A DNA stretch of 32,304 bases from a virus. The DNA is taken from IMG/VR virus record IMGVR_UViG_3300021407_000386, positions 1-32,304 of that record; one strand, 5' to 3'. The first letter of the stretch is position 1. Each line of letters begins with the position of its first letter. A program made the position numbers and the translations under genes. Under the pieces are notes generated by a model. That model saw only the letters and a list, made by a program, of their open reading frames with translations, ran no database searches and was not told the origin of the DNA. This document shows positions 3,001 through 21,370 of this stretch, in pieces.

Positions 3001-4359
3001 CGCCGCGAGCGGATAAATGTCAGTCGATGAATAAAACCACTGGCCCGGAGGCTGATTGTTGCCGGTGATGGTCTGCGGCCCCTTCAGCATGTCGCAGGTG
3101 CCGGTCTGGTCCGGCGTCCCACCGCCCCACGTACATAACGGCTGCCCTTCGAATTGCGCGTCGCTGCTGCCCAACGTGTTCGGGATCATATAGCGCAGCG
3201 ATCCCGCGCTCATGCCAGTCGGTCCCAACGCCGTCAGCGTCTCGTTGCGGAACCCCGTCGCTGCGGTCGCGGCCTTGCCGATGTACATATCGTCGATGAA
3301 GATCGTCGCGCCAGATTCTGCTGTCGTGTTCGTTCCCACGATCTGAGTCTGCAACGGCGAGTTGAGATACGTCGCGAGGTCGCTGCCCGTGAACGTGAAG
3401 GGCGTGACCTGATGCCACGCGCCGTCGTTGACGAGCGTGAAGGTGTGGCTGACGGTCCAGTGGCCGATGCGGTTAAGGCTGACGGTAACTTTCGGCGTCC
3501 CCGTCGAAGTGCCGGAACCTTTCGCGTAAAAAGCGATCTCCCAGTTTCCAACTATCGGATGCCACGGTCCCGCTTGCGGCGCCGTCAGACAGGTGCCCGT
3601 GCCACAGTCCGGTGTGACGTTGGCAACGGTGCAGGGAGTCACGTTATCTTTTGAGCAAACGCCTCCTGTCGAGCCTTGGTTATCAATCTGCTCGTGGACT
3701 GTGTGGCTGTTTCCATCGGCTACGTTGATTGCTAGCGAGCCTAATCCCTCATAAGCATCCGCCGTCGAGAGCGCGCTGTTCGAGTCGTTTGCAGCCAAGC
3801 CGCCGATGGTGTTCGTCGCGATGTTGCCGCCAATGTTTACCGAAGTCAGAACTTCCGTTACGCCGACGCCAGCCGCGAGAGTAGGACAACTGGGTGAGCA
3901 CGAGCCGAAAGTGTAGGAGCCTCCCGCAGTGAACCCTGTTATCGTGAAGGTAGTTCCAGCCGCCGATCCGGTTCGCACCGACGCCTGCGCGCCGACCCAG
4001 TACCCAGAGGGTGCACCGCTATCCACGGTATCCACGAAACTGCTGCCACTTGCTCCACTTGCGACCTGAATTAAATGGCCGTCGCTAGGCGGCTCAAAGC
4101 CGGGATTGTAGAAAATGTTCTGCATGATATTGGAGTCATCTTCGGCGTTACCGTAGGCGCCGCCCATGTTCACGCCAACCCAGTTGATGCCCCACGGCGC
4201 AGCAGTCACCGATGAAGTGACCTGCGCAGTCGGCGTGGGCGTCGCGGCGTAAGCATTGAGCGGGCTTAATTGCTGGCGGAAAGGACGAGCGTAGAAAATG
4301 CTCGTAAAGACGAATGAGCATACGAATAGGAGTACGAGCAGAGCGAGTCCACGCCTCAT
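1..4359 (-). CDS. Exported multidomain glycoside-hydrolase-like protein (partial, C-terminus beyond left edge)
   Basis: The frame is open from an ATG at 4359 to base 1, 1453 codons without a stop, and continues outside the window. The start overlaps the previous stop as ATGA. Residues 1-45 look like a signal peptide or anchor (MRRG, a hydrophobic run, then AYA-AT). Residues about 50-330 are beta-rich and resemble a carbohydrate-binding sandwich. Residues about 330-760 resemble a clan GH-A barrel: WIEESNEEWN (498-507) fits the Asn-Glu acid/base motif with Glu504, and AEGGY around Glu711 could hold the nucleophile. A CxC-rich beta segment follows, then an Ala/Thr linker (about 899-951), a domain, a second linker (1180-1254) and a similar domain. 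It is probably a tail-associated or secreted polysaccharide-degrading enzyme. The hydrolase call rests on motifs only; the substrate is unknown. Confidence 0.8.
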   Translation of the reverse strand, partial: MRRGLALLVLLFVCSFVFTSIFYARPFRQQLSPLNAYAATPTPTAQVTSSVTAAPWGINWVGVNMGGAYGNAEDDSNIMQNIFYNPGFEPPSDGHLIQVASGASGSSFVDTVDSGAPSGYWVGAQASVRTGSAAGTTFTITGFTAGGSYTFGSCSPSCPTLAAGVGVTEVLTSVNIGGNIATNTIGGLAANDSNSALSTADAYEGLGSLAINVADGNSHTVHEQIDNQGSTGGVCSKDNVTPCTVANVTPDCGTGTCLTAPQAGPWHPIVGNWEIAFYAKGSGTSTGTPKVTVSLNRIGHWTVSHTFTLVNDGAWHQVTPFTFTGSDLATYLNSPLQTQIVGTNTTAESGATIFIDDMYIGKAATAATGFRNETLTALGPTGMSAGSLRYMIPNTLGSSDAQFEGQPLCTWGGGTPDQTGTCDMLKGPQTITGNNQPPGQWFYSSTDIYPLAAALATSTGHPVVPWVSFPNTFTDADLNTFINNVCTALTTYNFPSIWIEESNEEWNDDGGDVKWGAPALQTGYGPEAGRNFSIMSSTATANCPSVASRIHYIVGNQACNSGVINGVLVGANTAGFAIPNTNQYGTADAPYYQDASGAFVYHSGSLSSQASQYAADFFSSGGLYTKHYLANPGCIQTNNAFGDYGTVGSNNFVNIYENNAAGYAPGGVCSNNSAITCPEFANQGSINFYCGGTTNTCVGPFSTTEQMYLAEGGYPAAGYMAEGWLLAQQLGRTPIQNVFTFGQIEFGVQGIVGPIWGVTHDQDYDFTPPNTPHNRPAALAMGVVNGAIQPNYYIVNPAQLPTNVVANAYNSNGSATGNWSAALVDGTASAVPMAVAFPGTGTVPQSCQAVCFTNGLTDNVENSNLVFDCPCTGFSCSGQSCGITLQPYQVAAMDPGPSATPTPTITATPTATATATATSTATATATATATATHTATATPTITATPTATPTAGCTPFAQSTTVAGGAAESISLVKPAGVVAGNTLIAWISYDYGTWEVSPPACSGSCGAGWTLLANPKGGSVAHPEALGLYELTAGASEPSTYSFAPGGFNASCPGSCGFASGGILAFANVTGNDGVAITQANQASGTTVAAPAITTSVANDYLVAGFGFGTSGSSDTLSFTGSGLVLGNAIAFNSGANWGGAIGSVPEAVAGTYGPFNTTSSGTLVAGASVIQALTCAVPTPTATPTATATATATSTATATATATATATSTVTATATSTATATATATATPTATATATATATATVTTTPTATPTPVCAPAVSVSAGFAQAVPSATASVTVTYPGAVVWGHWLGLNAGVAGPSGAISSVSDNVNGAWTKDAACPNTNGDIENEIWRYTGSLPASAGGLTVTVSFGTPDKANITFADIAGLATSGALDTVGACHQGSSQFPSTGVITPGTVGDFLWGGISQVNSLLVSINPSNPTFSTMAGGANPLEVPLYVLQNQFSTAQATISV
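598..822 (-). repeat. Degenerate 6-bp repeat coding an Ala-Thr linker (second linker)
   Basis: Seventy-five codons of the left-edge gene alternate Ala and Thr with occasional Pro, Ser and Val. The amino-acid repeat is strict but the third codon positions vary, so at DNA level it is a degenerate hexamer tract. It begins and ends with PTPT-type motifs, typical of flexible linkers in secreted multidomain proteins. The opposite strand has long spurious open frames here. Confidence 0.85.
1507..1665 (-). repeat. Degenerate 6-bp repeat coding an Ala-Thr linker (first linker)
   Basis: Fifty-three codons of the left-edge gene encode alternating Thr-Ala and Thr-Pro, with one His and a few Ile and Ser. 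It separates the hydrolase-like core from the first of two similar C-terminal domains. Codon third positions vary as in the other linker, which argues for selection on the protein rather than recent slippage. Confidence 0.85.
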
Positions 4360-4757
4360 TCCGCCCCCTGTCGCATCTCGTTGTAGACGCAGGTCGCTTC
4401 CGTCTTCACGTCTCCGACGAGACTGTACATCTGGGCCTTGCCTTTGGTCAGAATCGGCTGCGGAGCAGTGCCGTTCATCCATTTGATCGTTGGGCACTTG
4501 GCGTTGGGCACAAAGGTCGGGATGAAGCCCCCCGCACAAGTCGGACTCTGGTACGCCTTGATGACTAGGGCCTGAAAGTCCAGCGGCATCGGCAGCACGA
4601 TATTGCTGTTCGCGCACATCTCAAGGACGTAGCCGCATTTCAGGCCGGGACACGCGAGCAAGGTCGTCGTCGGCTTGGTCACGACGAGACGCTGCGGGCC
4701 GACCCACGCGAACGCAGGAGAGGCGAGCAGGAGCGCGATAAACGGCCAGCGTTTCAT
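4356..4757 (-). CDS. Exported cysteine-containing beta protein, tandem paralogue of the upstream gene
   Basis: 133 residues. It starts MKRWPFIALLLASPAFAWVG: two basic residues, a hydrophobic run and an AFA/W cleavage-like site, so Sec export is likely. The mature part holds several cysteines (CPGLKCG and later pairs), which would suit disulphides. The C-terminus (GKAQMY ... VYNEMR.G.E) matches the end of the 150-residue neighbour, so the two genes arose by tandem duplication. The ATG overlaps the neighbour's stop (ATGA) and its own stop overlaps the start of the giant hydrolase-like gene. The fold resembles small fibre-tip domains seen in phages (inference). Exact function is unknown. Confidence 0.85.
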   Translation of the reverse strand: MKRWPFIALLLASPAFAWVGPQRLVVTKPTTTLLACPGLKCGYVLEMCANSNIVLPMPLDFQALVIKAYQSPTCAGGFIPTFVPNAKCPTIKWMNGTAPQPILTKGKAQMYSLVGDVKTEATCVYNEMRQGAE

Positions 4758-5206
4758 TCGGGGCCGGGCCTCATTTCGTTGTAGACCGGCGAGCCCTGCG
4801 TCGTGTAATCGACGATGAATTCGTACATCTGCGCCTTGCCGCTTGTCAGTACTGGCGCATACGGCGCACCGTTCGCCCAGTTGATTGAGTATCCCGAGCA
4901 GGCCGCGAAGGTTGGAGTGAACCCGCCTGGTGAGACTTGGAGAACCTTGAGGGTGAGCGCCTGCCCGTCCACGGCACACGGCAGCGTGAGCGTGCTCGTG
5001 CTCTGCATGCTGAGAATGTAATAGCAGGCGAAATATCCGCATCTTGGGAGCGTAAAGCTGCCGGTCGTCACAGCAAGGCGGATCGGCTGAGTCGGCGGCG
5101 GTGGCCCTACGGGGTTGCCAGTCGCATTGCTCCCGTTGGTCGCATTCTGCGCAAGCGCCAGCGACGAGAGCAACAGGCAAGCGCCAGCAATCAGCGTCAC
5201 TTTCAT
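4754..5206 (-). CDS. Exported fibre-tip-like protein
   Basis: 150 residues. The N-terminus, MKVTLIAGACLLLSSLALAQ, is a clear signal peptide with ALA-Q as a cleavage site; a Gly/Asn/Pro-rich stretch follows. The core contains DGQALTLKVLQ, then PGGFTPTF, then GKAQMYEF and a terminal YNEM. This order resembles the small beta domain often found at the tips of phage fibres, also seen in the 142-residue protein upstream. Four cysteines are present. The start overlaps the previous stop (ATGA). It is a paralogue of the next gene downstream. It could be a receptor-binding or virion surface protein, although a signal peptide is unusual for that role. Confidence 0.85.
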   Translation of the reverse strand: MKVTLIAGACLLLSSLALAQNATNGSNATGNPVGPPPPTQPIRLAVTTGSFTLPRCGYFACYYILSMQSTSTLTLPCAVDGQALTLKVLQVSPGGFTPTFAACSGYSINWANGAPYAPVLTSGKAQMYEFIVDYTTQGSPVYNEMRPGPE

Positions 5207-5562
5207 GTGGTAGTAATCACCAACAGGCCGCCGGTCGCTGAATTGATCGGAGCACCAAGCGCACCGGAAATAACGCTGACATATTCGGTAGGGCAGTTCG
5301 GTTGCGGGAAAGTTTCGTTGTTAGCGACCAACCCATTCGGGTGTATGAGTCGCGACGTTCCGAATTCGTAGGCGTACCCCGGCAATACTTCAAGTTCACC
5401 GTTAGTTCCGCAAGTCGCCACGACGCCAAACGCTATCCACATTGTCTGCTGCGACGCCGAATAATTACGAATCAGCATGTAGCGACGGTTTGAATCGGCA
5501 GGAACCACTTGCGATGCCGCAGACGTTGCATTGATGGGGAAGGGTTGAGTTGGATTTCCCAT
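5203..5562 (-). CDS. Small beta-sandwich virion protein (probable fibre or decoration)
   Basis: 119 residues, no signal peptide. The core RRYMLIRNYSASQQTMWIAFG, then LEVLPGYAYEF, is the pattern of a small beta-sandwich domain frequent in phage structural modules: a strand, a polar turn, a strand and a Pro-Gly turn. A GAGG ribosome-binding site lies 5-8 bases before the ATG, and the gene starts just after the fibre gene's stop. Position among tail genes suggests a fibre accessory or surface protein. The family could not be named with certainty. Confidence 0.8.
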   Translation of the reverse strand: MGNPTQPFPINATSAASQVVPADSNRRYMLIRNYSASQQTMWIAFGVVATCGTNGELEVLPGYAYEFGTSRLIHPNGLVANNETFPQPNCPTEYVSVISGALGAPINSATGGLLVITTT

Positions 5563-5570
5563 TCAGTACC

Positions 5571-6578
5571 TCAGTAGGCGATCCAAGCGTAGGACGTGCT
5601 GCCAGCTTCGGCGCATTGGACTTGGCACGTGTAGCAGGTTCCGCCCACCGTGCAGCTGGAATGTGTCGGGGTGGCGTTAAAACTGCATGCTGAATCGCTG
5701 TCCAATACGGTGAAGACATTTCCTGCCGTGCCGCTGCCGCAACTGGGCAGATTTGCGATGGTGCTGCTCGGGAAATGAACTCCGGTCGCGGCAACGGAAA
5801 AAGGCGACGGAGCGCCCGATCCTGAAAAGGTTGCTTTATACGCGACTTCGGCTACCGGCAACGTCTCGTCAATGATGTTGACAGGCGGTCCACTGAAAGT
5901 GCCGAGTGGTATCGTCAGGTTGGCGACGCCCGTCAGGGAATTGCCGCCCATCGAATAACTGCCAGTCGCAGTTGCCAGGTCGTTCAGATGATTCAGTCCG
6001 AACGCCAATGAATCGCCCGACCCCGTACCCGCTTCCAAACCTGTCAACTTGAAACTGTTCATCCCGTAGGTACCGGTGGGCGCTGCCAAGTTATTGAGCG
6101 ACGATTGCCCTTGCGACAGAGCGTCATCGGCAGTCGTATTCGCACCTACGTTGTAGATTCGGAAGCCCGCCGCGTTGAGAGGCCCGGTCAGCACGCCCGT
6201 TGCGATCGTAGATTGTCCTGCCAGGAGATTGGCGAAGCTGGTGCTGCTCGCAATAGGTACGTAGCCCGTCGTCGGCGAGCCGCAACCCCCGCCCTGTGCC
6301 TGACAGATCGTGATTTGCACGAACAAGCCCTGCACGAGAGCAGTTGTGCTCAGGTTGCCGTTCACATCGGTCGAACTCGTCTTGAGAATCGGATTGATGA
6401 CATTCGCGTTGACGACCTGCACGCTGCGTGAGTTGAAATAGATCGTTGCGTTCGGTACAGGATTGGCCGCTCCATCGTAGACCACCCCAGAAATCGCGCA
6501 CGTAGCGGGCGCCGTCGCGTCTGCCGATAATGCACGCACGAAAATGAAGACGGTGAGCAGTGCGAGTATTTTTCTCAT
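5571..6578 (-). CDS. Tail fibre-like protein with signal peptide
   Basis: 335 residues. I chose ATG 6578, which overlaps the previous stop as ATGA; an in-frame start 18 bases upstream lacks that coupling. MRKILALLTVFIFVRALSAD is a signal-peptide-like start. Residues about 25-70 (CAISGVVYDGAANPVPNATI) resemble a carboxypeptidase-regulatory-like Ig domain. Two repeats follow, LNNLAAPTGTYGMNSFKLTG and LNHLNDLATATGSYSMGGNS, typical of the triangular-prism shaft of phage fibres. The C-terminus is cysteine-rich (CTVGGTCYTCQVQC). The shaft repeats point to a trimeric fibre; the signal peptide is unexpected for a virion part. Confidence 0.85.
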   Translation of the reverse strand: MRKILALLTVFIFVRALSADATAPATCAISGVVYDGAANPVPNATIYFNSRSVQVVNANVINPILKTSSTDVNGNLSTTALVQGLFVQITICQAQGGGCGSPTTGYVPIASSTSFANLLAGQSTIATGVLTGPLNAAGFRIYNVGANTTADDALSQGQSSLNNLAAPTGTYGMNSFKLTGLEAGTGSGDSLAFGLNHLNDLATATGSYSMGGNSLTGVANLTIPLGTFSGPPVNIIDETLPVAEVAYKATFSGSGAPSPFSVAATGVHFPSSTIANLPSCGSGTAGNVFTVLDSDSACSFNATPTHSSCTVGGTCYTCQVQCAEAGSTSYAWIAY

Positions 6579-7003
6579 GCTGTCAAAACCCACCATTTCT
6601 TACCCGTTGCCGTTGGATCGTAAATGCAAAGCGCGGGATGTCCCGCCGTAACCGTGATCGGATTTGAAATGTTGCCACCGCCGCCGAAGCTGAAACCGTT
6701 CAAGCTCAGGAGCACAATAAAGCTCTGAAACCCGTTAGGCGGAGTGATCGTGCTGATCGTTCCCGTCCCTGAAATTCGATGCGCCCAATTCGTGACGTTC
6801 AGTGTCGCTGTCGTAGGCAGGTCCAAGCCAAACGCCTGCGTGCCCGAATTCATGTCTTGGATGATTCCTTTGAACGCTGGAATCTCGTACTGCGATAGAT
6901 GGTCGTTCAGGAATTTCGCCAAAGCATTTATGATCGTCCAGAAATCGTGTTGAGCCGGAACCTCAAAGCTCGGCGGATTGTAGTCCTGAAGCGCTTGCAT
7001 CAT
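6575..7003 (-). CDS. Tail protein with fibre-tip-like C-terminal domain
   Basis: 142 residues, cytoplasmic-type N-terminus. The first 45 residues are helical and contain an aromatic stretch (HDFWTIINALAKFLNDHL) that could dock to the tail hub encoded just upstream. The remainder is a beta domain: GTISTITPPNGFQSFIVLL, then ITVTAGHPALCIYD, then KKWWVLTA, a pattern common at the C-termini of phage fibres. The ATG overlaps the hub gene's stop (TAATG) and its own stop overlaps the next start. It probably attaches fibres or tips to the tail (inference). Confidence 0.85.
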   Translation of the reverse strand: MMQALQDYNPPSFEVPAQHDFWTIINALAKFLNDHLSQYEIPAFKGIIQDMNSGTQAFGLDLPTTATLNVTNWAHRISGTGTISTITPPNGFQSFIVLLSLNGFSFGGGGNISNPITVTAGHPALCIYDPTATGKKWWVLTA

Positions 7004-8430
7004 TAGCGGATGCCCCCCACGCGCGCTTCGTAGGCGTAACCGACAATCTCCGCAGGGCCGACAAAGTTGAACTGCACCTGATGGTAACGATCATATTGCC
7101 GAAGTGAATTCCAGTCGTCTGCGGTCTTAAAGACAGCGGCATCAAAGCTCGGTGGCTGGCCGAGAATGTTCGTATGAAATGCCTGCGCGAAATCGGTCGT
7201 CGGATAGACGTTCCACTTGGCGCGGAATCGAAGCAACTGACTCAAGTTATCTTCGTCACCCAGAAATCCCGTCGTGACGTGCCCCGTCGTCGGCACGGCG
7301 CCTGCTCCGCTATCCCACGTTTCAAGAAACGAATTGGTATCGAAGAAATAGCCTCCACCACTCGTGCCGCCATTCGCTCCCGTCACCGGCAAGGGCGGGT
7401 CCAGCGTATTCGGCACTACGTAAGTCGTGTTCAGATAGCCCGTGCTCCAGCGGCCCACGCGGACGTTAAACGCGACGTATCGGTCGAGGACGCTCGGACT
7501 CGGAGAACTCGTCGAAGTGAAGTGCCAGTAAATTACCGAGTTGAGCGAATCGTACCACCCGCACACGTTCGGGAGCTGCGAAGGGTTGGCGTTCGCGAAG
7601 AACCATTCCTTGATACTGTTGGGGATGCGCTGCGGCGTATAGCCGGTCGTGATGTAAAAGTCGTCCGTCCCAAGAAATGCGATCGAGTCCGGCAGCGTTA
7701 CCACGCATTCTTGTCCGTACGTGCCGACCTGTCCTGAAATAAGCTGAAAACTCCATGTAAACGGAGCGCCGGAGAACGTACCGACCCACGTCGCGCCTGC
7801 CTTGAATGCAATGATCGACCGATAGAGCGCTGCCGCTGCGACAATGTTTCCCGGCACGTCGTACAGCGACCCGCTCGCCGCCAAGGTCTGGATGTTCGGC
7901 ACGTAGTCGTTATCAACACCCGCCGCGCTCGAATACCAAGTCGATCCAGCGAAGAACACGACAAACCCGCCGACGGAAATGACCGTCGTGGCGCCAACCG
8001 GAGGACTCCCGCCAAGGGGTACGAAGAGCGGCGCGCTCGGCGACCACACCAGCGGTGTTATTATCGGATTGTTGGCCGTCACGATCACGTCGTCGTTGAA
8101 TTGGGTGAAGCGAAAGCGAGTTATCGGAGGCGCGATTACACCGCCAGTTACATTGACCCAACCTCCCGCCGTCAACTGAAAGATGAATCCGGCAGCAGCG
8201 TAGAACAGCGTCGGGACGCCCAACACGCTTGCAATATAGGCTCCCGGCGGATTGGCGTTGAACAGAAACGTATTCGGGATGACCACAGGGAAGTTGCGCG
8301 CTGCATAACCTTTCATTGTCGGCACTGCCGAGTTGGCGTCCAAGATAATCCCCGGCGTAGTCGGATCTTTATCCGGAGCAAAATCGGAAAAAATTACTTC
8401 CTGACCCTTCCCTATCTGGTAACTCGGCAT
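7003..8430 (-). CDS. P22 gp10-like tail hub / DNA stabilisation protein
   Basis: 475 residues, close to the usual length of P22 gp10. Visible family features are repeated hydrophobic blades such as GGFVVFFAGSTWYSS and RSIIAFKAGATWVGTF, then QVGTYGQECVVTLPDSIAFL followed by DDFYITTG, which parallels the gp10 segment with KGIAGTY and a similar DSYAF stretch. In P22 this hexameric protein plugs the portal-adaptor channel and carries the needle and tailspikes. A GGTGAG ribosome-binding site precedes the ATG. It lies directly after the adaptor gene, as expected for this family. Assignment is by remembered pattern, not by a search. Confidence 0.8.
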   Translation of the reverse strand: MPSYQIGKGQEVIFSDFAPDKDPTTPGIILDANSAVPTMKGYAARNFPVVIPNTFLFNANPPGAYIASVLGVPTLFYAAAGFIFQLTAGGWVNVTGGVIAPPITRFRFTQFNDDVIVTANNPIITPLVWSPSAPLFVPLGGSPPVGATTVISVGGFVVFFAGSTWYSSAAGVDNDYVPNIQTLAASGSLYDVPGNIVAAAALYRSIIAFKAGATWVGTFSGAPFTWSFQLISGQVGTYGQECVVTLPDSIAFLGTDDFYITTGYTPQRIPNSIKEWFFANANPSQLPNVCGWYDSLNSVIYWHFTSTSSPSPSVLDRYVAFNVRVGRWSTGYLNTTYVVPNTLDPPLPVTGANGGTSGGGYFFDTNSFLETWDSGAGAVPTTGHVTTGFLGDEDNLSQLLRFRAKWNVYPTTDFAQAFHTNILGQPPSFDAAVFKTADDWNSLRQYDRYHQVQFNFVGPAEIVGYAYEARVGGIR

Positions 8431-8433: not shown

Positions 8434-9363
8434 TCACCACACATCCGGCGCAATGGGCGCTCGCACGTCCTGCTGCGATGTCTGCTGCTGGAGCACGAGG
8501 TATTCTTGCCTCGCGAGCGCGAAGTACATCTGCGCCATCTGCTCGTCGCCTATAAGAGCACGAGACATCCGCGCCTCGGCCTCGTAGCGAATGAACGCTT
8601 CGGCGGTAGTCGTCCACATATTCGAGTCGGTCGATAGCTGCGCGAGCGGCGGCGCCGTTCTGTAGGACAACGTGACCGGATAGAGACCTGCCGGATAAGG
8701 CCACAGGTAGATTTGCTGTTGATACCACGCATACCACGAGGGGTAGGTTGCCGGAGGCGTAGGCCGGATCATGTCGTAATCGCGGAGTGCTGCGTAATCC
8801 AGCGGCTGCATCTCGATGCGCTGCGTCAGCTGCCACGTCACCTCCACCCGCGTGAACGCCACGAGGTCAATCGGCATCGTGAGCTGGTTGATGTTGTAGA
8901 CAGTCGATAGCTGGGTGTAGACGCCCACGTCGGTGGTGCCGTTGTTGGCCCAGATGATGCCGTTATCGTCCACCGTGCCCGCCGTTCCGGGTGCTGGAGG
9001 CGGCTGCTGATTCTGATTGTTCCCCGACGGCACCTGGAACACCGTGCTCGGCCACACCGGAGTTCCCGCTGGCGAGGTCGCGCCTGCGTTAAGAGCCACA
9101 AAGTAGCTGGGACTCCCGCCCGCAGGCGTCGCGATGATCGTCGTCCCCTGCGTGACGATAACGTTGTTGGCGTAGCTAAGTACGGCGGTGTTATCGGTGT
9201 CGGAAAAGAAAAAGGGCTTCCGCTGGAAAAACCGCATCGCGTCTTGCAGATAGGCGGGCGCCTGCGCTGCAAGATCAGGCCGGTTCAAATCATCGAGCAC
9301 ACGTTGGATCTGTTGCCCAAAGTTCCTGTTATCGACCTGTGTACTTTGCCACTGTTGGGCCAC
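8434..9363 (-). CDS. Head-to-tail adaptor (P22 gp4 / tail tubular A-like)
   Basis: 309 residues. The start is GTG at 9363 with a very good GAGGAG ribosome-binding site six bases upstream. The N-terminal helices (IQRVLDDLNRPDLAAQAPAY, then DAMRFFQRKPFFF) and the later RVEVTWQ, YPSWYAWYQQQIYLWPYPAG and PVTLSYRTAPPLAQLSTDSN segments match the adaptor family that forms a dodecameric ring under the portal. The C-terminal ARMSRALIGDEQMAQMYFAL region is the long helix of these proteins. A proline-glutamine insertion near residues 115-130 is low complexity. Its neighbours, the coat protein upstream and hub downstream, support the call. Confidence 0.8.
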   Translation of the reverse strand: MAQQWQSTQVDNRNFGQQIQRVLDDLNRPDLAAQAPAYLQDAMRFFQRKPFFFSDTDNTAVLSYANNVIVTQGTTIIATPAGGSPSYFVALNAGATSPAGTPVWPSTVFQVPSGNNQNQQPPPAPGTAGTVDDNGIIWANNGTTDVGVYTQLSTVYNINQLTMPIDLVAFTRVEVTWQLTQRIEMQPLDYAALRDYDMIRPTPPATYPSWYAWYQQQIYLWPYPAGLYPVTLSYRTAPPLAQLSTDSNMWTTTAEAFIRYEAEARMSRALIGDEQMAQMYFALARQEYLVLQQQTSQQDVRAPIAPDVW

Positions 9364-10383: not shown

Positions 10384-11472
10384 TTACTGCGCGTTCGTGG
10401 CGGCGGCGTTGAGTGTGTCGATGTCGAGTCCGTAGGTGTCGATTCCGGCCACGCCGAAGTCGGTCGAATTGAACTGCACCTTAACGAGGCCCCAGATGGC
10501 GCTCACGCCGATACCGATCTGGCGACCGTAGTCGCGTAGCTCTTCCAGCCACCGGAACTTCTGCGACTCGTCCTGCCCGCGTCCGAACGCCAAAACAGCC
10601 GCCTGAGCCCCAAGGCCCAGCGCCCGCTTGGTGTTCGCCACAGCGGCGCCCGCATTCGAGACCGAATTGGTCACGCGCGAATTCTCATGGAGCAGCACGC
10701 CGTGATACATACCCAGCGATTCCCAGAAGATCGGGTTGTCGCCAACGTCACCACCGGTCATGGCCGCTTTTTCGATGTCCAGCCATTGGCCGGTCGAGGT
10801 GTTCTGTCGCATGTCGGTGGTCTGCGACGGGTGCATCACGCCGATGAAAAGCTGCTTGCCGCCTACCTTCACCGGACGTATGCCCGAAGTGAGCGCCTTA
10901 GCCGACCGCACGAACGTGTCCCAATAGGTGATCTGGAACGTGTTGGTTGAGGTCAGGTTCGCTGCGTCAGTGATACCGGAAGGCAGAATCTGCCGCGTGA
11001 TCGCCACCGGACTCTGCAAGCCCGTGTAGTTCACGTTGGTCTGCGGGGTATACGACCCGAGCTGGTTGGCCGCGCCGTGATCAACACGAGCCGCGTACCA
11101 GTCCGCCAGCCGGTTGCGACCGATCTTTCTGCGATCGAACAGCACGCGCTGGTTGCTGATCGGCCCGACCAGCAGCACCGCGTGAGCGAGTTCCGATACC
11201 GTCAGCGCATCGCTGTAGGTGATCGGCGCCTCTTCGTTGCCGGTCAGCGTCTGCAAGTTCAGCACGCCAGCGCCTTGCAGCAACTGCGAGATGCCGAACG
11301 TAACCTGGTCGCCTGCATGCTTCTGCAAGTCGTCCAGAATCTGGATCGCTGAACTATCTTCCTTGGAGGCGATGCGCATGAAAAACGCGGTCTGCGCGAC
11401 CTGCGCCATCATTTGCTTCGCCCATCTTTTTACGGTAAGTGCGTCCCCTGTCTGGTAGACCCATTCGGCCAA
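10384..11472 (-). CDS. Major capsid protein, N4-gp56 family
   Basis: 362 residues. Family features are the N-terminal arm (TGDALTVKRWAKQMMAQVAQ), GDQVTFGISQLLQGAGV, the segment NEEAPITYSDALTVSELAHA, and RVLFDRRKIGRNRLADWYAA. The coat protein forms the icosahedral shell with an HK97-type fold. The best start is TTG at 11472: a GGGAG site lies eight bases upstream, and no ATG or GTG is found in frame near it. It has its own 197-bp leader with a promoter-like element and two inverted repeats. A probable scaffold gene upstream and decoration gene downstream agree with the call. Confidence 0.9.
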   Translation of the reverse strand: MAEWVYQTGDALTVKRWAKQMMAQVAQTAFFMRIASKEDSSAIQILDDLQKHAGDQVTFGISQLLQGAGVLNLQTLTGNEEAPITYSDALTVSELAHAVLLVGPISNQRVLFDRRKIGRNRLADWYAARVDHGAANQLGSYTPQTNVNYTGLQSPVAITRQILPSGITDAANLTSTNTFQITYWDTFVRSAKALTSGIRPVKVGGKQLFIGVMHPSQTTDMRQNTSTGQWLDIEKAAMTGGDVGDNPIFWESLGMYHGVLLHENSRVTNSVSNAGAAVANTKRALGLGAQAAVLAFGRGQDESQKFRWLEELRDYGRQIGIGVSAIWGLVKVQFNSTDFGVAGIDTYGLDIDTLNAAATNAQ

Positions 11473-12318: not shown

Positions 12319-13350
12319 CTATCGCACGTCGAGTGCTAATACCTTCTTGTTGAAATTCTTGTCCTTGATCGCTTCCAAATAGTCCGCATCGTCCATGTTC
12401 GCGATGTGCATGGCGAATGCCTGATCGTCCATCTGCTGCCACGGCTGCTGGGCCGGTTCCTGCGCGCTCTGGACCCGCCCCTGACCTTGAACGCGCTGTC
12501 CCGCCGCTATCTGGTCGAGCTTCACGTTGCCGTTGCCGTTCACCTTACCGTTGGTCGGCTTGTAGCCCCACTGCGTCGTCATGTTGGCAACGGTGGTCAC
12601 GAGGTCGGCTCCGTTTTGCGCTGCCGACGCGACCAGCGCATATTCTTCGTTGGCGACTATCTTGCGGGCGTTCTCTTCACTGTGACCGAGGCTCATCCAG
12701 AGCTTGGTCCGCTCACCACGGGCGAAGTCTACGCGGGCGTCCCAGTCGGGATGGCGGCTTCTGCCTGTGTTGGCGATCTGCTGAACGTAGCCTTGCATTT
12801 GCTGCTGCTGGGTCCAACCCTGAAGCTCCTGCGACCGCCCATTCACAAATTCAGTCAGCCGTGCAACTTCGGCGCGGGCTGCTTTGGCGTCTTCAACCGC
12901 GTCCCACGCACGGGCACCCGCGGGGTCTACGTCGGGGTCGGGGCGCTGTGCGGCACGCTCGGCTGCAGCGGCGGCTTGCTGTGCCCGCGTCTGCGCGTCG
13001 TTGGCGAGCTTCTGACGTTCCTCCAGCCGTGCCCACCGTTCGCGGGATTCGGACGCCTCTTTGCGAATCTGCTCCAGCTCGATGCGGGTACGGTTGCGCT
13101 CGTCCACCACTTCCGAGAAGCGGTCGTAAGGGACGACGCTCGGCTTCTTGCCCTTCTTGCCGCCTTCGGCTGTCTCAGCAGGCTCCGCAGTCTGCTCGGC
13201 GGGCTCGGTCTCTTCAGCATCAGGAACGGCTTGAACGGCAGGCTCGCCGCGCTCTTCGGCGGCGGCGGCAGCCTTTTCCTCGTCGGTTAGCGCGTCTCCG
13301 GTCTCTTCGAGCATCGGGTTGAAATTAGGTGCGGCTTTAGATTTCGGCAT
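12319..13350 (-). CDS. Probable capsid scaffolding protein
   Basis: 343 residues. The N-terminal third is Glu/Ala-rich and acidic, the middle (about 80-165) is a long charged coiled coil (RNRTRIELEQIRKEASESRE and onward), and the end is Gln-rich with a short helix-rich tail (DDQAFAMHIANMDDADYLEA). Composition, length and placement between the portal cluster and the capsid gene match scaffolds of P22/N4-type phages, which template the shell and leave before DNA packaging. A GGAGAAC ribosome-binding site precedes the ATG. Long open frames on the plus strand here are a by-product of its codon composition. Confidence 0.8.
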   Translation of the reverse strand: MPKSKAAPNFNPMLEETGDALTDEEKAAAAAEERGEPAVQAVPDAEETEPAEQTAEPAETAEGGKKGKKPSVVPYDRFSEVVDERNRTRIELEQIRKEASESRERWARLEERQKLANDAQTRAQQAAAAAERAAQRPDPDVDPAGARAWDAVEDAKAARAEVARLTEFVNGRSQELQGWTQQQQMQGYVQQIANTGRSRHPDWDARVDFARGERTKLWMSLGHSEENARKIVANEEYALVASAAQNGADLVTTVANMTTQWGYKPTNGKVNGNGNVKLDQIAAGQRVQGQGRVQSAQEPAQQPWQQMDDQAFAMHIANMDDADYLEAIKDKNFNKKVLALDVR

Positions 13351-13582
13351 GTTCTCCTCTTCCTTGTCCTCTCCCTTTCCACGGAAATTTTCTTACGTCT
13401 TCGTGCATCGCAGGCGACTGTGATTCAGCCACGCAGTATAAATATGCTTCTCCGTTCTCCGAGATCCAAACCAGTTTCAGACCTCCTGAAGGTCCAGCGA
13501 ACATGGGAGCCTCCCACGTACCGCTACGAGAAGTACATTCAAGAATTGCCCATCCCAATTCTCGCTCAAACTGTGACGGCAT
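13337..13582 (-). CDS. Hypothetical small protein
   Basis: 81 residues with a strong AGGAGAGG site before the ATG. It overlaps the ATP-grasp gene by 17 bases and the scaffold gene by 14, so all three are probably co-translated. The sequence (LKLVWISENGEAYLYCVAES) suggests a compact beta protein with a basic end (KGRGQGRGEH). No family recognised. Confidence 0.65.
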   Translation of the reverse strand: MPSQFERELGWAILECTSRSGTWEAPMFAGPSGGLKLVWISENGEAYLYCVAESQSPAMHEDVRKFPWKGRGQGRGEHAEI

Positions 13583-14852
13583 AATCCTCTCCTGCGAAAT
13601 TGCTCCAACGTATTCCGAGGCTTTCCCCCTCGGTTATTGTCTCCAATGCTTTGTGCAAGGCTCCGGAATCGTAGTTGATCCCCGTTCCCTTCACCGACTT
13701 CGCCACTTCCGACGCTTCGGCCACCGCCTCTTCCATCGTGTCGCCCAACCCGAGCGCCGCGCCCAGCTCCGGTATCTCGCTCATGCTCACCGCCCAGTCC
13801 ACACCGTCGATATTGCAGTGGCCGTGAATGGCGGTCCTATCAGGCCGGTCGATTTGAACGGCGATAGGCCGCTCCTCGAAGGTGGAAGAGCGGAGAATGA
13901 TCTGCGCTCCGTAGCGTGCTCGGAATTCCGGTTCTACTATTTCGCCGTTCGCGTAGCCCCACAGGATTTCACCGAGGTTGGCGATCATCTTGCTCTGCAA
14001 CTCCGAAGGAGGCGAGCCAAACCGGCACGTCGCATCAATGAAATAAGTGCCAATACCATTTTCGCGAGTCTCTGTAGAAAACGCACCGCGATAGTCGAGC
14101 GCTTTGAGGGCGGGCCTGAGTTTCTGCTGAGTACGACGGAGCCGAGGGGATAGATAGCCTGTGCTCGCAACGAAGGCTGAGTCCTTGACCTCGTAGCCGA
14201 AGAGGGAAACTTCGGGAAAATCACCGTCGGCACAAAAGGTGTCGAATCCGATTTCGACGCACTCGCCTTCGTCGTCCGCGATCGGCTCTTCGACGACAAA
14301 TTCAGCAAGTGACCCATATGGCCCCAACTTTAGCGACAGTTCATCGAGTATGCTACGCGATAGAATCGGCCCCTGATGCTCGAAGGTCTCCCCGTCTCCA
14401 CGAAACCACGATAACTTGACATAGAGACTGCTATCGGTCTGCAACATCCTCCGCAGGTTGTCTATACCGTGCACCCCCAGACCGTTAGCAGTCTGTATAT
14501 CGAGTCGTTTGCAGACTTCTTTCAGGAATCCGCGGTCCCTTTCGAGCCGGTCGGCGTCGCCGGAGCCGAAGACCGGCATTCCTCGTGCGCGCATGAATTT
14601 CTGTAATCCCGAGTATCCCACATCAGGAAAAACCAGAAGGTCGCAGCGATCAAGGTGATCAAATAGATCGTCGATCCGTTCAATTCCGTCCAAGCCAATA
14701 CCAGGAAGAAGATCCCGAGCGCGTCGGAAGCTAGCGTCAGAAGGAGTCCAATAGAGAACTTCGGCAAAGTCATCGACGACAGCCTCCGCGAGGTGGGTAT
14801 AGTCGCCACCGAGGTCGGCGAACAGGCAGACTTTGTTACTTAGCGCTGGCAT
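13566..14852 (-). CDS. ATP-grasp protein resembling phosphoribosylamine-glycine ligase (PurD-like)
   Basis: 428 residues, the usual length of PurD. GMPVFGSGDADRLERDRGF (91-109) matches the PurD stretch around IPVFGPS-x-A-A-LE-SK. Further ATP-grasp features are YVKLSW (144-149), FVVEEPI (185-191) and the magnesium-binding region STETRENGIGTYFIDATCRF (259-278, with Glu261 and Asp273). The C-terminus (LGDTMEEAVAEASEVAKSVKG) resembles the PurD C-terminal domain. The canonical N-terminal glycine-rich GREHA and the GPE-PL motifs are absent, so the substrate has probably changed. ATP-grasp enzymes join a carboxylate to an amine or thiol. It overlaps the glycosyltransferase gene by 17 bases, which suggests a joint role in modifying a virion or surface molecule. 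Confidence 0.75.
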   Translation of the reverse strand: MPALSNKVCLFADLGGDYTHLAEAVVDDFAEVLYWTPSDASFRRARDLLPGIGLDGIERIDDLFDHLDRCDLLVFPDVGYSGLQKFMRARGMPVFGSGDADRLERDRGFLKEVCKRLDIQTANGLGVHGIDNLRRMLQTDSSLYVKLSWFRGDGETFEHQGPILSRSILDELSLKLGPYGSLAEFVVEEPIADDEGECVEIGFDTFCADGDFPEVSLFGYEVKDSAFVASTGYLSPRLRRTQQKLRPALKALDYRGAFSTETRENGIGTYFIDATCRFGSPPSELQSKMIANLGEILWGYANGEIVEPEFRARYGAQIILRSSTFEERPIAVQIDRPDRTAIHGHCNIDGVDWAVSMSEIPELGAALGLGDTMEEAVAEASEVAKSVKGTGINYDSGALHKALETITEGESLGIRWSNFAGEDYAVTV

Positions 14853-15612
14853 GCTCCACTGCGCCGTTCTTCTGCTTCGGACCTATCACGCAGCCATCTT
14901 TGAACTCGTGCTTGATCCATTCTTCGGGATGCTCTTCGCGCAGCCACATCTCGTAGCTCAGCGCATGCTTCTTGATGTGCCCGACCTGAATTCCTGCGTG
15001 GCCGTAGATGGGGAACTTCGCCGCTCGCACCCGCCGGCAGAAACTCAAATCCTCACCGAGATGATGCGTCTGGTTGTCGTCGGCATTCCACGTCTCGTCG
15101 CGGCCGAACCACGTCCAATGATCCCTAGCGTGAATCACGGCTAGTTCTTCGAACACCGAGCGATGGATGATGCAGAAGCCCATGCCAATAGCGTCGAGCG
15201 CCTGCGGCTGTCCGGCGTCCGGCTCTACCTGCTTGACGGTGGTGTACTTGCCGTTCTTCGGATCGACAAACCAGATTGGGACAAGCCGCCCTGCGGCCAG
15301 CCGCCCGAAGTAGATACCGGACACGATAGGCCGCTCCACCGGATCTGCTACCTCGTACAGCGCATAGATCATCTCGGGTCGGAAGTGAATGTCGGTGTCA
15401 AGCGAGACCAGCCAATCATCGGTGGTCTTCAGAAACTCGCGCACCATGTTGTTGCGGTTTTCTTCGATATAGAGGCCGCGAATCTTCGCTTCGTGCTGCA
15501 CGAGGCCGTTGTGCTGCTTGTCGAAGATTTGGAGGTCGCGCAGGGAATCGACGAATTCCTCTTCGCGTGTGCCGTAGCAGTAGCCGATGCAGACGGTGCC
15601 CTGATTCTTCAT
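14836..15612 (-). CDS. GT-A fold glycosyltransferase (GT2-like)
   Basis: 258 residues. DDWLVSLDTDIHF carries the DxD motif (Asp72, Asp74) that binds a metal and a nucleotide sugar. RNNMVREFL before it, GMGFCIIHRSVFEEL in the acceptor region and the GEDLSFCRR segment, resembling the catalytic ED of GT2 enzymes, fit a GT-A fold. No membrane segment, so it acts in the cytoplasm. It overlaps the ATP-grasp gene and the upstream small gene (ATGA), so the set is one operon. Phage glycosyltransferases of this kind modify capsid or tail proteins, DNA or host sugars; the position between portal and scaffold favours a virion target (inference). Confidence 0.85.
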   Translation of the reverse strand: MKNQGTVCIGYCYGTREEEFVDSLRDLQIFDKQHNGLVQHEAKIRGLYIEENRNNMVREFLKTTDDWLVSLDTDIHFRPEMIYALYEVADPVERPIVSGIYFGRLAAGRLVPIWFVDPKNGKYTTVKQVEPDAGQPQALDAIGMGFCIIHRSVFEELAVIHARDHWTWFGRDETWNADDNQTHHLGEDLSFCRRVRAAKFPIYGHAGIQVGHIKKHALSYEMWLREEHPEEWIKHEFKDGCVIGPKQKNGAVEHASAK

Positions 15613-16324: not shown

Positions 16325-16371
16325 TGCATTCTCCTTCGCCCAATGTTGTTTCTTCCATTGTTTAGCCATGT

Positions 16372-17648: not shown

Positions 17649-18198
17649 TAGTTATTCCTTTGAGCGGATCGAACATCTTGGGTTCTTCGGCGGCGTTCGG
17701 ATGAATTACTATCTTGCCTTGCGGCGGCGGAAGTAGCGCGGCGTTGGGTTGCGGGACAACGGGCTTCTGCCTTGACTTAGGCGGAGCGGCATTGAACATT
17801 TGCGCCGCTATATTTTGTCCCTGCCGATCCTGCGCGGCACCACCGAGTTCGTATTGCCCGTGCACTTCGCAGAGCCAGCCGGTTTTCGTCTCATTCATCA
17901 CAACACCCTGCCGCCCGCAATAGATACACGGATTTTGCACTATGGGTGCTGGAATTGGTGGCGGCGGGTTGCCTGTGAGTAGCGTCGCCGTATCGTGCGT
18001 GCGTGAAACCTTGAAGCCTTCGGCGCGGAGCAACCGCGTCAGTTCTTCCAACTGCTCACCCACATATTCCAAGACGGCAACCTTACGCGCTTCGATGGCT
18101 GCCTGCTTCATCTGGTCAGTGGCGCGGGCGCGTATCTTCGACTTCACCGACTTGCGCCGACGACGGACGATCTTCAGTTTGGGTTCAGAGTCCGCCAT
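17590..18198 (-). CDS. Basic, Cys-motif protein after the portal
   Basis: 202 residues, overlapping the end of the portal gene by 14 bases. The N-terminus is very basic (KLKIVRRRRKSVKSKIRARA), followed by a helix, a Pro-rich loop (NPPPPIPAPIV) and CIYCGR ... CEVHG, which looks like a zinc-binding knuckle (Cys2-Cys-His). The C-terminal half is Gln/Pro-rich and acidic at the end. The basic head and the finger could bind nucleic acid. No named family. Confidence 0.7.
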   Translation of the reverse strand: MADSEPKLKIVRRRRKSVKSKIRARATDQMKQAAIEARKVAVLEYVGEQLEELTRLLRAEGFKVSRTHDTATLLTGNPPPPIPAPIVQNPCIYCGRQGVVMNETKTGWLCEVHGQYELGGAAQDRQGQNIAAQMFNAAPPKSRQKPVVPQPNAALLPPPQGKIVIHPNAAEEPKMFDPLKGITNGTVGVLGEDSDEAGDIGQ

Positions 18199-20182
18199 TG
18201 TCGTTCACCTGCGGTGGCCCCTGCATCTGCTGCTTGGCCTTTGCGATTCTGTCGTGTAACAGCTTTTGGTGATCCAAATTCTTTTGATGAGAAAGTTCAG
18301 AACTCTTTAGTAGCGTAGTGGACGTGAGTTCCGCAATATCGAGGTTCGACTTTCTGTCTATGGCCTTCGCCTCGGCGAGCGAGCGCTGCGTGTCGGCGTC
18401 CAACTTCTTGATCTTCGCCTGCGTCATGTTCGGATCTTCAGTCTTACCCTGCTTTTGCGGCTTCTGCGGCTGCTGACCGGCCTGCTGCGCCAACTCCTGC
18501 AACTCCGCCACGATCTGCGCGGGCAGCGGGCTGAACTTCATTGCTTTAAGCAGGAATTGTTGCCCGATAGGCGATTTCATCAGCGGTCCCGCTATTTGTA
18601 GCAAATCGGTCCAAATCTGCTGCTTGAGATTCGGGTTGTGACGAATCGAATCGTCCAGAATCATGTCGTACTGGTCTTGCGCGGGCAGTTCGGACTTTAA
18701 CAAGGGGATTGCCTTGGAGTTGAACTGCCCCCCGACGCGGACCAACTGCCCGTAGCTCCAATACTCTCGGACGAAATCGAGCACGGTGGTGAACTGCTGC
18801 TTGCGGAATCGGGAAATGTTGTCCCAGAACCAGCCGAGAATAATCAGACCACCCTGAACACGGGCACCGATAGTCGGTCCCGTAGATTCGCCTGTCGCGA
18901 TGCCGAGCATTTCGTCGCTCACGCCGCTGATCCGCGACATCGAAGTCTTCGCTTCCTGAAAGAGCATCGGCGGCACTTGCGAGATTTGCGTTGGTTGTCG
19001 CTGCACGATGTCGGTTGCGATAGTCGCTTCCGGATTTACTTCAATCCAGCTGTCGGGCTTCGCGTATTGGTCCTTAGCTGAATTCACGTCAGCAAAAGTT
19101 CCCGTCTTGAAGAACACGCCGCCTTTCGCGTTTGTGATGTACTGAGTCACCAACGACGAGATGGCCTTGTTCATCGTGTTCTGCGGGTCCTTCAGAGACC
19201 GCACGATGCCGTACCAGGTTTTCTTGACTTCGTCGTACTGACCCGTGCAGCAATGGAACGACCACTGCCCCGGCAACACGACTTCATCTTCGAGCACGAC
19301 GCCTAGCGACACGTAGACTTGCTTGTAGAGCGGTTTGAGTTGGCGCACCGCCTTGGGCATCGGCTGGCCCGCGAGCTGGTTGCGCTTTTCGAGCGCGCCC
19401 CATTCGTCTTCGGTGAGAGTTTTCAGTCCTTGCGGGTCTTGCGGGTCTGCGATTCTCCAGATAGGCACCATGTCGCGCCACTGGTACTGGATCACCGAGA
19501 GAGAATTATTTACGTCGCTACGCTGGCCGACCTGTGGGTTAGCCTGCTCGTTCGCGCGAGAGTAGTAAGGCGTGACGAGTTCGTACTTGTTTACGTCGTT
19601 CTCTTCGTAGTAGACGGCGGCTTCGTCCACCTTCTCGATCATGCCGGGGAAGCGCTTCTTGAAATCTCTTCGGGACCAATCCTTCTTGCGCGCACGCCAC
19701 TTCGAGTCGCCGAGATTTTCCTGCGTTGCCTTCGTATCCCAATACATTTCTTCGTAGGGGATTCGGCGAACGACGATTCTCCCGTCGGGGTCGTCATCGT
19801 AACTGGTGCTCGTTTCGCCCCAGCCCATACCAACGACTGCCGTGTCCTTGAAGATGCCAGAATCTTCCATCTCGCCGTCGCACATATCCATCGCGGTCGC
19901 TACTGCTTCGCTCGCGAGGTCGCCAGCGGCGTCGTGAATTATGTCTGAATCGATCTGGCGGGAGACGGCGTGAACGTCCTGCCGGTTCAATCGTTCAAGG
20001 CCAGAGATGGCGTCTATCTTGTCGCCGATTTCGTTGAAGACGAGCGCAGGACGGCGAAGCTGCTCCATCCGCATGCGGTCGAGGTCGGGCCACTGGTGCC
20101 CGTGATAGTAACGCGAGTCTTCTTTAGCGGAGTTGCGAAACGTGTTGACACCAGCGCCCGAAGACGCCATGTCGCGCATCAC
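18185..20182 (-). CDS. Portal protein (P22-like)
   Basis: 665 residues from the first standard start (GTG 20182, then ATG 20179). Family features are YYHGHQWPDLDRMRMEQL followed by RPALVFNEIGDKIDAISGLE, then VVRRIPYEEMYWDT, and the RSLKDPQNTMNKAISSLVTQ helix, all typical of P22-type portals. The dodecameric portal forms the DNA channel at one vertex and docks terminase and adaptor. The C-terminal 130 residues are Gln/Lys-rich coiled coil. The frame is open a further 43 codons upstream to the previous stop, with coding-like composition and a strong ribosome-binding site before an ATC codon, so the true start may lie at 20299. Confidence 0.9.
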   Translation of the reverse strand: MMRDMASSGAGVNTFRNSAKEDSRYYHGHQWPDLDRMRMEQLRRPALVFNEIGDKIDAISGLERLNRQDVHAVSRQIDSDIIHDAAGDLASEAVATAMDMCDGEMEDSGIFKDTAVVGMGWGETSTSYDDDPDGRIVVRRIPYEEMYWDTKATQENLGDSKWRARKKDWSRRDFKKRFPGMIEKVDEAAVYYEENDVNKYELVTPYYSRANEQANPQVGQRSDVNNSLSVIQYQWRDMVPIWRIADPQDPQGLKTLTEDEWGALEKRNQLAGQPMPKAVRQLKPLYKQVYVSLGVVLEDEVVLPGQWSFHCCTGQYDEVKKTWYGIVRSLKDPQNTMNKAISSLVTQYITNAKGGVFFKTGTFADVNSAKDQYAKPDSWIEVNPEATIATDIVQRQPTQISQVPPMLFQEAKTSMSRISGVSDEMLGIATGESTGPTIGARVQGGLIILGWFWDNISRFRKQQFTTVLDFVREYWSYGQLVRVGGQFNSKAIPLLKSELPAQDQYDMILDDSIRHNPNLKQQIWTDLLQIAGPLMKSPIGQQFLLKAMKFSPLPAQIVAELQELAQQAGQQPQKPQKQGKTEDPNMTQAKIKKLDADTQRSLAEAKAIDRKSNLDIAELTSTTLLKSSELSHQKNLDHQKLLHDRIAKAKQQMQGPPQVNDNGGL

Positions 20183-20299
20183 CTGCTCGGAAATTTTCTG
20201 CTTTTCGGGATCTTCGTTCGCAGTGAACGCGAAGCTAAGTTTGCTCGACGGGGAATCCTGACCTTGGTCGGTCAGGGAGCGTAAAAGATCCTCGGCGAT

Positions 20300-20313
20300 T
20301 TCCTTCTCTCCTC
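20300..20313 (-). promoter_or_regulatory. Strong ribosome-binding-site-like sequence before a non-standard portal start
   Basis: Directly after the upstream stop, the minus strand reads GAGGAGAGAAGGAA followed by ATC GCC GAG GAT in the portal frame. It is the best Shine-Dalgarno match in this region, yet no ATG, GTG or TTG follows within range. Either ATC (20297-20299) is used or a base differs from the original (ATG). Confidence 0.5.
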
Positions 20314-20890
20314 AGTGCCCGATGCAGATACATCCGAACGTGTCGCCCGACGTGAGTCCACTCACGGTGATATTCACGCCTGTGCTGTAGGCGACTTTCA
20401 ATCCTGCGGCTGTCGTATTGTCCGAGCAAGTACACACCGGCTGCGCAGTGTAGGCCGTATTGAAAATAACTGTGCAGGCTGTCACCGCGCCCGCTGCCAC
20501 CTGAAACGCCGTGTCGGTCGAGGTCGCTGTGACTGTATTCGTGCCGCAACTCGATGTGGTCGGAATTGTCGCCGTTCCCAACTGCGAGTTCAGGTGCCCG
20601 CCATTGGTCAACGAGACGGTGCGGTCTGTTGTTCCGGTGAATGTCGCGCTAGTAGCCGACAACGTAGTCACGACCGAAGACGGCGCTACGAATGCCGTCC
20701 CGTTCCAGACGTAAAAGGCCCTCGCCGTGCTGTCGAGGCAGAACGCTTTGCCCGCAGCCATCGGCGGCGTCTGCGGAACATAACTCGTGCAACTTGATTC
20801 GCTGTAGTACCAGTTGTCGAAAATGAAGGCGTTCGCACGCCCGCAAAGCGCGAAGAGAACCAGCGCGACGGCGATTACTCGGATCTTCAT
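20312..20890 (-). CDS. Exported beta-rich, cysteine-containing protein
   Basis: 192 residues. MKIRVIAVALVLFALCGRAN followed by AF is a signal peptide (cleavage near ANA-F). The middle contains Thr/Ser-rich beta repeats (TTLSATSATFTGTTDRTVSL) and the C-terminus a Cys-rich beta domain (VTACTVIFNTAYTAQPVCTC and GDTFGCICIGH), similar in style to C-terminal domains of phage fibres. The ATG follows the previous stop without a gap. Virion or surface role unknown; the signal peptide implies export. Confidence 0.8.
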   Translation of the reverse strand: MKIRVIAVALVLFALCGRANAFIFDNWYYSESSCTSYVPQTPPMAAGKAFCLDSTARAFYVWNGTAFVAPSSVVTTLSATSATFTGTTDRTVSLTNGGHLNSQLGTATIPTTSSCGTNTVTATSTDTAFQVAAGAVTACTVIFNTAYTAQPVCTCSDNTTAAGLKVAYSTGVNITVSGLTSGDTFGCICIGH

Positions 20891-21370
20891 TTACATCGGA
20901 CCGGTGATCACGTACGTCATCCAGCCTACCGTGCCGGTCGTGCTCGCACCGCTCAGGATGCAGAGACTATTGCCAACCGTGCTGGTCAGCGTCGATGCGA
21001 CTGGCGGAACAACTAGTGACGAAGCGCCAGAGGCATTAATCGACAGCACCGTCGATGCCGGAATCGCGCCGGTCAGGGCTGTGGCCGCTGCTGCCGTCGC
21101 GCACGAGGTTCCCGTGCCGTACTCGATGGTCGAAGTGCCGCCAATCGAATCCAGCCACCATGAGCAGACATACACTGCTGAGTTCTGATTCGACGTGTTG
21201 TTGATGATGCGCGTGGTTGTCGCTGTCGCGATCGAAATCGGCACCGTGGTTTTCGAGTAGGTATTGCACGGGTCCTGGGAAATATTCGGCACCGCCTGCC
21301 CCATCGCGAGAGCCACATAGAACAACACCGCGAATACGACACCCGCCCCTGCCATCTTTTTGCCTGTCAT
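20891..21370 (-). CDS. Exported beta protein of phage fibre type
   Basis: 159 residues. The start (MTGKKMAGAGVVFAVLFYVA) is a signal peptide with cleavage near AMG-QA. The mature part (VPISIATATTTRIINNTSNQ, VYVCSWWLDSIGGTSTIEYG and GTSCATAAAATALTGAIPAS) resembles a small beta domain often carried by phage structural genes in which a strand with YVCS is followed by a Gly-Thr-rich hairpin. Four cysteines. Its ATG overlaps the stop of the 1001-residue protein (ATGA). It could be a surface attachment protein. Confidence 0.8.
   Translation of the reverse strand: MTGKKMAGAGVVFAVLFYVALAMGQAVPNISQDPCNTYSKTTVPISIATATTTRIINNTSNQNSAVYVCSWWLDSIGGTSTIEYGTGTSCATAAAATALTGAIPASTVLSINASGASSLVVPPVASTLTSTVGNSLCILSGASTTGTVGWMTYVITGPM

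Follow-up and report, generated by a model that had tools for sequence, protein, structure and literature searches.

A linear virus contig of 32,304 bases (IMG/VR record IMGVR_UViG_3300021407_000386; hereafter the window), in which there is no host sequence, carries the virion operon of a soil podophage, with every gene on the minus strand. Seven proteins encoded in this operon begin with signal peptides (SPs), among them an orthologue of tail fibres. Judging from sequence, this phage and its relatives probably send tail-fibre-like and sugar-degrading SP proteins out of the infected cell rather than building them into the virus inside it. The best reading is that an exported fibre/depolymerase cassette has replaced the long tail fibres assembled in the cytoplasm. 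Few phage proteins are better studied than tail fibres, and, to our knowledge, all known ones are assumed to fold and assemble inside the cytoplasm.

Signal peptides and cysteines in seven virion-operon proteins

The original prediction had placed SPs on the proteins starting at 4359, 4757, 5206, 6578, 12110, 20890 and 21370. All seven have their ATG where it was claimed, and they scored 9.2–12.2 with a rule-based scorer of our own making, which uses hand-set matrices and a cut of 9 and was checked on about 100 Escherichia coli genes only. The other genes in a hand-made list of 41 scored at most 6.7; a later automatic gene call added one doubtful 83-codon open reading frame (ORF; 14522–14773) that scored 8.1, under the cut. 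In the E. coli K-12 calibration, nine known exported proteins scored 8.4–10.3 and none of 69 cytoplasmic proteins reached 9; among membrane or secretion proteins, 2 of about 29 did, so that the scorer by itself cannot exclude membrane anchors. The mature parts of the seven are soluble, a further hydrophobic segment being absent from all of them (highest Kyte-Doolittle mean over 19 residues, 1.46), and each protein combines a basic n-region, a hydrophobic h-region and a small-x-small site, as expected for Sec export and SPase I cleavage. None of 1,034 internal windows scored 8 or more and 37 of 20,000 composition-matched random N-termini scored 9 or more; together with the E. coli controls, these counts reject a chance origin of the seven N-termini.

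Five of the seven starts overlap the upstream stop codon by 4 bases and two adjoin it at a distance of no more than 1 base, bearing out the proposed coupling to virion genes. None of the in-frame starts within 60 codons downstream has a ribosome site that convinces. Given the coupled starts and the lack of a rival start, the idea that the true starts lie beyond the hydrophobic segments is not supported, and cytosolic isoforms made from a second start were likewise rejected. A gene without an SP (5203–5562) sits inside the group, which makes the SP a feature of particular genes. Spanins and SAR endolysins were also rejected as identities, because no lipobox was noticed in the seven and the endolysin of a relative (G011) is a separate gene without an SP (PF07486). 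We consider export of the seven proteins very likely.

Cysteines after residue 24 number 31 (4359, a truncated gene), 6 (4757), 4 (5206), 9 (6578), 8 (12110), 8 (20890) and 4 (21370). The mostly even counts in the mature parts agree with the paired cysteines predicted for most of the set. Across SP-bearing relatives, cysteine makes up 2.22% of mature SP proteins versus 0.37% of co-operonic virion proteins without an SP (p = 6e-20, with kinship among the sequences not corrected for), and 31 of 42 mature SP proteins have an even number. Tail proteins of a related clade that lacks SPs (see below) contain 0.2–0.8%. A disulphide-type pattern is well supported by the sequences, and in exported proteins it would lead to disulphide formation and oxidative folding.

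Proteins of the cassette

The fibre of the cassette (5571–6578, 335 amino acids (aa), SP score 11.6) was assigned by orthologue alignment and consists of an SP, an Ig-like N-terminal domain, shaft-type repeats and a Cys-rich tip. Its own profile matches are weak, including those of its Ig-like domain to tail-fibre N-termini (PF08400, 0.006; phrog_2636, 0.003); a close orthologue, G020_3, matches the tail spike family phrog_4636 (2.5e-9). Behind the fibre lies the 119-aa protein without an SP (5203–5562; phrog_22789, of unknown function), which travels with the cassette and has the homologues G020_4 and G019_39. Two small exported-type proteins follow, one of 150 aa with 4 cysteines in its mature part (4754–5206, SP score 10.4, 72% identical in relative G019) and one of 133 aa with 6 cysteines (4356–4757, SP score 10.1, with a 93% identical copy in G019). 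The two are paralogues (46%).

The last gene encodes a giant exported-type protein of at least 1,453 aa with 32 cysteines (1–4359, SP score 9.2), cut by the contig end. Cleavage is likely after N-A-Y-A, at about residue 38, and an N-A-x-A site is also found in G020 and G019. The SP is followed by a large N-terminal region and then by globular domains on Thr/Ala/Pro linkers. Its SP-bearing relatives are G019_42 (68%) and G020_6 (48%), the latter complete at 1,429 aa and with more SP genes behind it. The giant has no Pfam match and no PDB sequence match, its C-terminal part matches phrog_15511 (7.8e-12), and AlphaFold on two sequences gave no usable fold (pLDDT 28). A glycoside-hydrolase-like motif, ESNEEW, picked out by eye, makes it a possible glycoside hydrolase. 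A plus-strand ORF of 640 codons (493–2415) and an Ala-Val repeat ORF were rejected as genes, being antisense shadows of the giant's linker codons.

Three further exported-type proteins are inserted singly among the head genes. One of 146 aa with 8 cysteines (11670–12110, SP score 10.7) lies between the scaffold and capsid genes and has an SP-bearing orthologue in G001 (59%). Another, of 192 aa with 8 cysteines in its mature part (20312–20890, SP score 12.2), has a C-terminal half homologous to residues 892–994 of a 994-aa SP fibre of relative G002 (blastp, 8e-11), so that exported-type proteins, large and small, appear to exchange their tips. The third (20891–21370, 159 aa, SP score 10.9) belongs by alignment to a family with four invariant cysteines, encoded before the adaptor gene in L007 and upstream of the portal gene in the window. 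A low-confidence model (pLDDT 63) is jelly-roll-like; its best viral matches are phage virion structural proteins (E ~1e-5, TM ~0.5) and its best PDB match is a Bacillus Ena appendage subunit, all of which we treat as weak.

Recurrence of the cassette in related phages

The same arrangement was sought in related contigs, and the SP cassette recurs there. Genes of the relatives were called automatically with a small hexamer gene finder, and some starts (for example, G012_24 and G007_22) are probably wrong. The SP fibres of these relatives are encoded after the head-closure and short tail genes and before the lysis genes, which the window contig stops short of. G002 (62 kb) has eight consecutive SP genes after the short tail protein, for products of 994, 148, 621, 199, 215, 499, 476 and 1,772 aa. 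The Hc3 gene of G011 (62.8 kb) is split over both contig ends, so this genome is essentially complete; although of IMG/VR class linear, it (L189–L192) is probably a complete permuted genome. In G011, all genes lying between those for the short tail protein and for lysis encode N-termini of the signal-peptide type; one of these, on a 606-aa protein, lacks a basic residue and was missed by the scorer. No non-exported long fibre was seen in the near-complete contigs G002 and G011, where the cassette is the only long-fibre set seen.

Exported-type proteins of the SP-bearing group include fibre, pectate-lyase-like, beta-helix, Polysacc_lyase, GH42-like and giant proteins joined by Pro/Thr (PT) linkers. 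Domain matches were found to Polysacc_lyase (1.3e-29), Beta_helix (2.5e-7) and Pect-lyase_RHGA_epim (9e-11), the enzyme-type Pfam families being PF14099, PF13229, PF02449 and PF12708; the SP protein G020_5 combines PF12708 with phrog_2234 and so, like G020_3, has fibre domain content. In relatives, these domains support the depolymerase/adhesin layer that had been proposed as one of three options. In a more distant relative, G007, fibre-like proteins that are not exported share a single operon with enzymes of the exported type. Beside the fibre genes in L191, L055 and L053 we also observed a small exported-type, coiled-coil-like protein (G011_89, 79 aa; G004_33; G005_11) with the conserved C-terminus DPPKSGATK.

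A sister clade without signal peptides

Four relatives (G006, L011, L013 and L014) form one clade in the capsid tree (support 100/100), nested among SP-bearing phages and placed next to G002 (join support 90/88), and their tail regions encode no SPs. The orthologue of the 6578 fibre is kept in three of these relatives and, with a re-called start, in G006; it has the Ig-like domain at the same position and no SP. The clade's other fibres share a distinct N-terminal domain, whose profile matches nine or ten proteins, all from this clade, and which a profile search did not find in any SP-bearing genome. This domain may be a virion anchor. Across genomes, SP fibres and the fibres of this clade are mutually exclusive.

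Prophages of cultured bacteria

In prophages of cultured Alphaproteobacteria and others, SPs are rare downstream of the capsid gene, being encoded by 7 of the 383 genes there. The exception is Methylobacterium, whose prophages have SP tail fibres near the capsid gene. That of M. fujisawaense DSM 5686 (L095, 11745–13241) encodes a 498-aa SP protein matching phrog_4209 (1.8e-28) and Gp53-like_C (8e-13); L095_16 matches PF21882 and has fibre domain content. A 569-aa SP protein in L077 (11746–13455) matches phrog_2631 (5.6e-27). In L096 (6013–7710), the match of a 565-aa tail-protein-like SP protein begins at residue 46, aligned to profile position 110, with the usual N-terminus missing, as if the SP stood in for it.

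Exchange of the cassette between phages

The virion of G019 differs from that of the window (portal 25% and Hc3 26% identity), yet G019 holds much of the window cassette (4757 protein 93%, 5206 protein 72%, giant 68% and the 119-aa gene without an SP 44%) at 27.4–33 kb of its contig (L211/L212). Two DNA stretches of 2.0–2.5 kb align between the window and G019 at 75–78%. Shared in this way across distant virions, the cassette appears to move as one piece, in the manner of receptor-binding modules. As a separate observation, two different exported-type proteins (L213:13717–14643 and, in L212, G019_43) each end in a Pro/Thr linker and one of two similar tails, GLHVSCGGF and GLHVSCNGGF, which may be a signal for sorting or binding at the C-terminus.

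Phage identity and neighbouring genes

The phage is SU10/P22-like, as judged from its terminase large subunit (29569–31176; phrog_38, 3.3e-36), P22-type portal (18185–20182; PF16510 P22_portal, 1.7e-72), major capsid protein (10384–11472; PF13252, 8.9e-55), SU10-type adaptor (8434–9363; PF24175, 1.4e-10) and Hc3-class tail/head-closure protein (7003–8430; phrog_3287, 1.1e-33; phrog_578, 1.4e-4). A scaffold-like protein (12319–13350) was assigned by position and composition; it is kept in relatives and has no PHROG match. After Hc3 comes g142, a short tail protein without an SP (6575–7003) that looks fibre-like by eye and is kept at this place in relatives. Pfam and PHROG searches with g142 gave no useful match; we regard it as a candidate virion receptor-binding protein.

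The capsid protein is 60–96% identical to those of a set of uncultivated contigs and 28–39% identical to those of isolated phages, for example Rhizobium phage RHph_Y1_10 and the Bcep22-like phages; a genome scan for capsid relatives found distant ones only (at most 48%), chiefly in Proteobacteria. A tblastn search of isolated phages gave no match for the window fibre, the 21370 protein or three SP proteins of relatives. Two other genes lie between those for portal and scaffold. One encodes a 428-aa protein (13566–14852) without a PHROG or Pfam match, labelled ATP-grasp-like by eye only and kept by most relatives, and the other a glycosyltransferase-like protein (14836–15612; phrog_34859).

Discussion

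The SPs, the translational coupling, the kinship with tail fibres, the cysteine pattern, the recurrence of the cassette and its exchange between phages are well supported by the sequences. From these we infer a late, Sec-dependent export of a fibre/depolymerase cassette that would act outside the cytoplasm and off the virion. The cassette fills the place of the long tail fibres, further single genes being inserted near those for capsid and portal, and its coupling to virion genes would give late synthesis. Each SP would carry its protein through the inner membrane, and disulphides would then form between the paired cysteines. Once mature, the proteins appear to comprise the shafts and tips of fibres, small modules rich in beta structure and large domains on linkers, with polysaccharide-degrading enzymes as well in relatives. 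They would collect in the periplasm and be secreted or freed at lysis, and the free proteins would then bind or cut surface glycans, so that progeny would not be trapped by matrix, by debris or by receptors already occupied. For adsorption itself the phage would depend on its short tail protein that is not exported (6575–7003). Taken whole, we give this mechanism slightly less than an even chance.

Its main competitor holds that the exported fibres are real, receptor-binding long tail fibres, folded with disulphides in the periplasm. As the cell lyses or afterwards, they would dock on virions that lack fibres, and the virion would be completed outside the cytoplasm. The position of the SP fibres between tail and lysis genes speaks for docking, as does the lack of any non-exported long fibre seen in G002 and G011. 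So do the start and Ig-like N-terminal domain shared by fibre orthologues with and without SPs, the mutual exclusion of SP fibres and the sister clade's fibres, and the Methylobacterium prophages with SP fibres near the capsid gene. P22 tailspikes, moreover, can be added to tail-less particles in extracts. Action off the virion is favoured because the N-terminal domain of the sister clade's fibres is missing and because no common docking domain was noticed among the SP proteins of one genome, by eye and by pairwise blast, with no dedicated search. The flexible, PT-linked multidomain proteins resemble free secreted proteins, the giant being an odd virion part, and a short non-exported fibre-like protein that can serve adsorption is kept throughout. 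The L096 match without its usual N-terminus and the co-occurrence of non-exported fibre-like and exported-type proteins in G007 point the same way. On balance docking appears somewhat unlikely.

The hydrophobic N-termini might instead serve no export and be parts of the virion, either hydrophobic helices for docking or segments active on membranes, in fibres that stay in the cytoplasm as usual. The neighbours are virion genes throughout, and export is read from sequence; yet N-termini with a basic n-region, an h-region and an A-x-A site are shared by unrelated proteins, score as high as real E. coli SPs, go with a sixfold enrichment in mostly even-numbered cysteines and also head enzymes typical of secretion, which makes this alternative improbable. 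Lysogenic-conversion or superinfection-exclusion proteins in the style of lambda Lom and Bor or T5 Llp, displayed by the infected cell or lysogen, are a further candidate. Exported phage proteins are known at tail loci, Lom lying between lambda tail genes (PMC12309495), and small SP proteins occur at several positions, as the 21370 family does. The translational coupling to virion genes argues against conversion, as do the lack of an integrase among ten G011 genes scanned (including RecT, nuclease and primase; the scan was not exhaustive) and the absence of a noticed lipobox, and we judge it very improbable.

Several points nevertheless weigh against an exported cassette that acts off the virion. 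Beyond the limited search for a shared docking domain, both export and absence from virions are deduced from the genes themselves, and the anchor role of the sister clade's N-terminal domain is a supposition. The Ig-like domain of the 6578 fibre, with its weak matches to fibre N-termini, could itself be a docking domain. The putative enzyme role of the giant comes from motifs, and that the short tail protein alone binds receptors is conjecture.

A lineage with SPs throughout its fibre locus, set beside sister phages that have the same N-terminal domain and no SP, amounts to a natural experiment: can fibres function, or become attached, once they have left the cell? Polysaccharide enzymes of soil phages that are described as auxiliary may belong to such a cassette, a pattern that ordinary annotation as tail fibres, hypothetical proteins or auxiliary metabolic genes would overlook. 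The Methylobacterium prophages make the idea testable in culture.

Full-text searches found no precedent for tail-fibre genes with SPs; most subscription journals were not covered, so this is weak evidence. Compared with the long fibres and tailspikes of podophages (T7 gp17, P22 gp9 and the SU10 long fibres), the cassette is alike in its gene position after the tail genes, its shaft repeats, the Ig-like N-terminal domain of orthologues with and without SPs, its beta-helix and pectate-lyase-like domains and its exchange between phages. It differs in its N-terminal SPs, in its high and mostly even cysteine content and in fibres without the N-terminal domain common to the fibres of related phages. 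The MAT fibres of Bdellovibrio bacteriovorus are exported adhesins with an SP, a conserved beta-rich domain and a mosaic, phage-fibre-like shaft and tip (PMC10769870), and so set a precedent for fibre-like adhesins that are exported. Their resemblance to the cassette is in architecture only; they are encoded by a predatory bacterium rather than a phage, and the cassette showed no S74 domain, which most MATs have. For a phage protein that is exported and stays out of the virion there is a precedent in XepA of prophage PBSX, which leaves the cell during phage development and is absent from mature particles (PMC6834076), but it belongs to a lytic cassette rather than a fibre set and its host is Gram-positive. 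Lambda Lom is an SP protein encoded among tail genes (PMC12309495); unlike this single outer-membrane beta-barrel, the cassette comprises many predicted soluble fibre and enzyme proteins and takes up a whole fibre locus.

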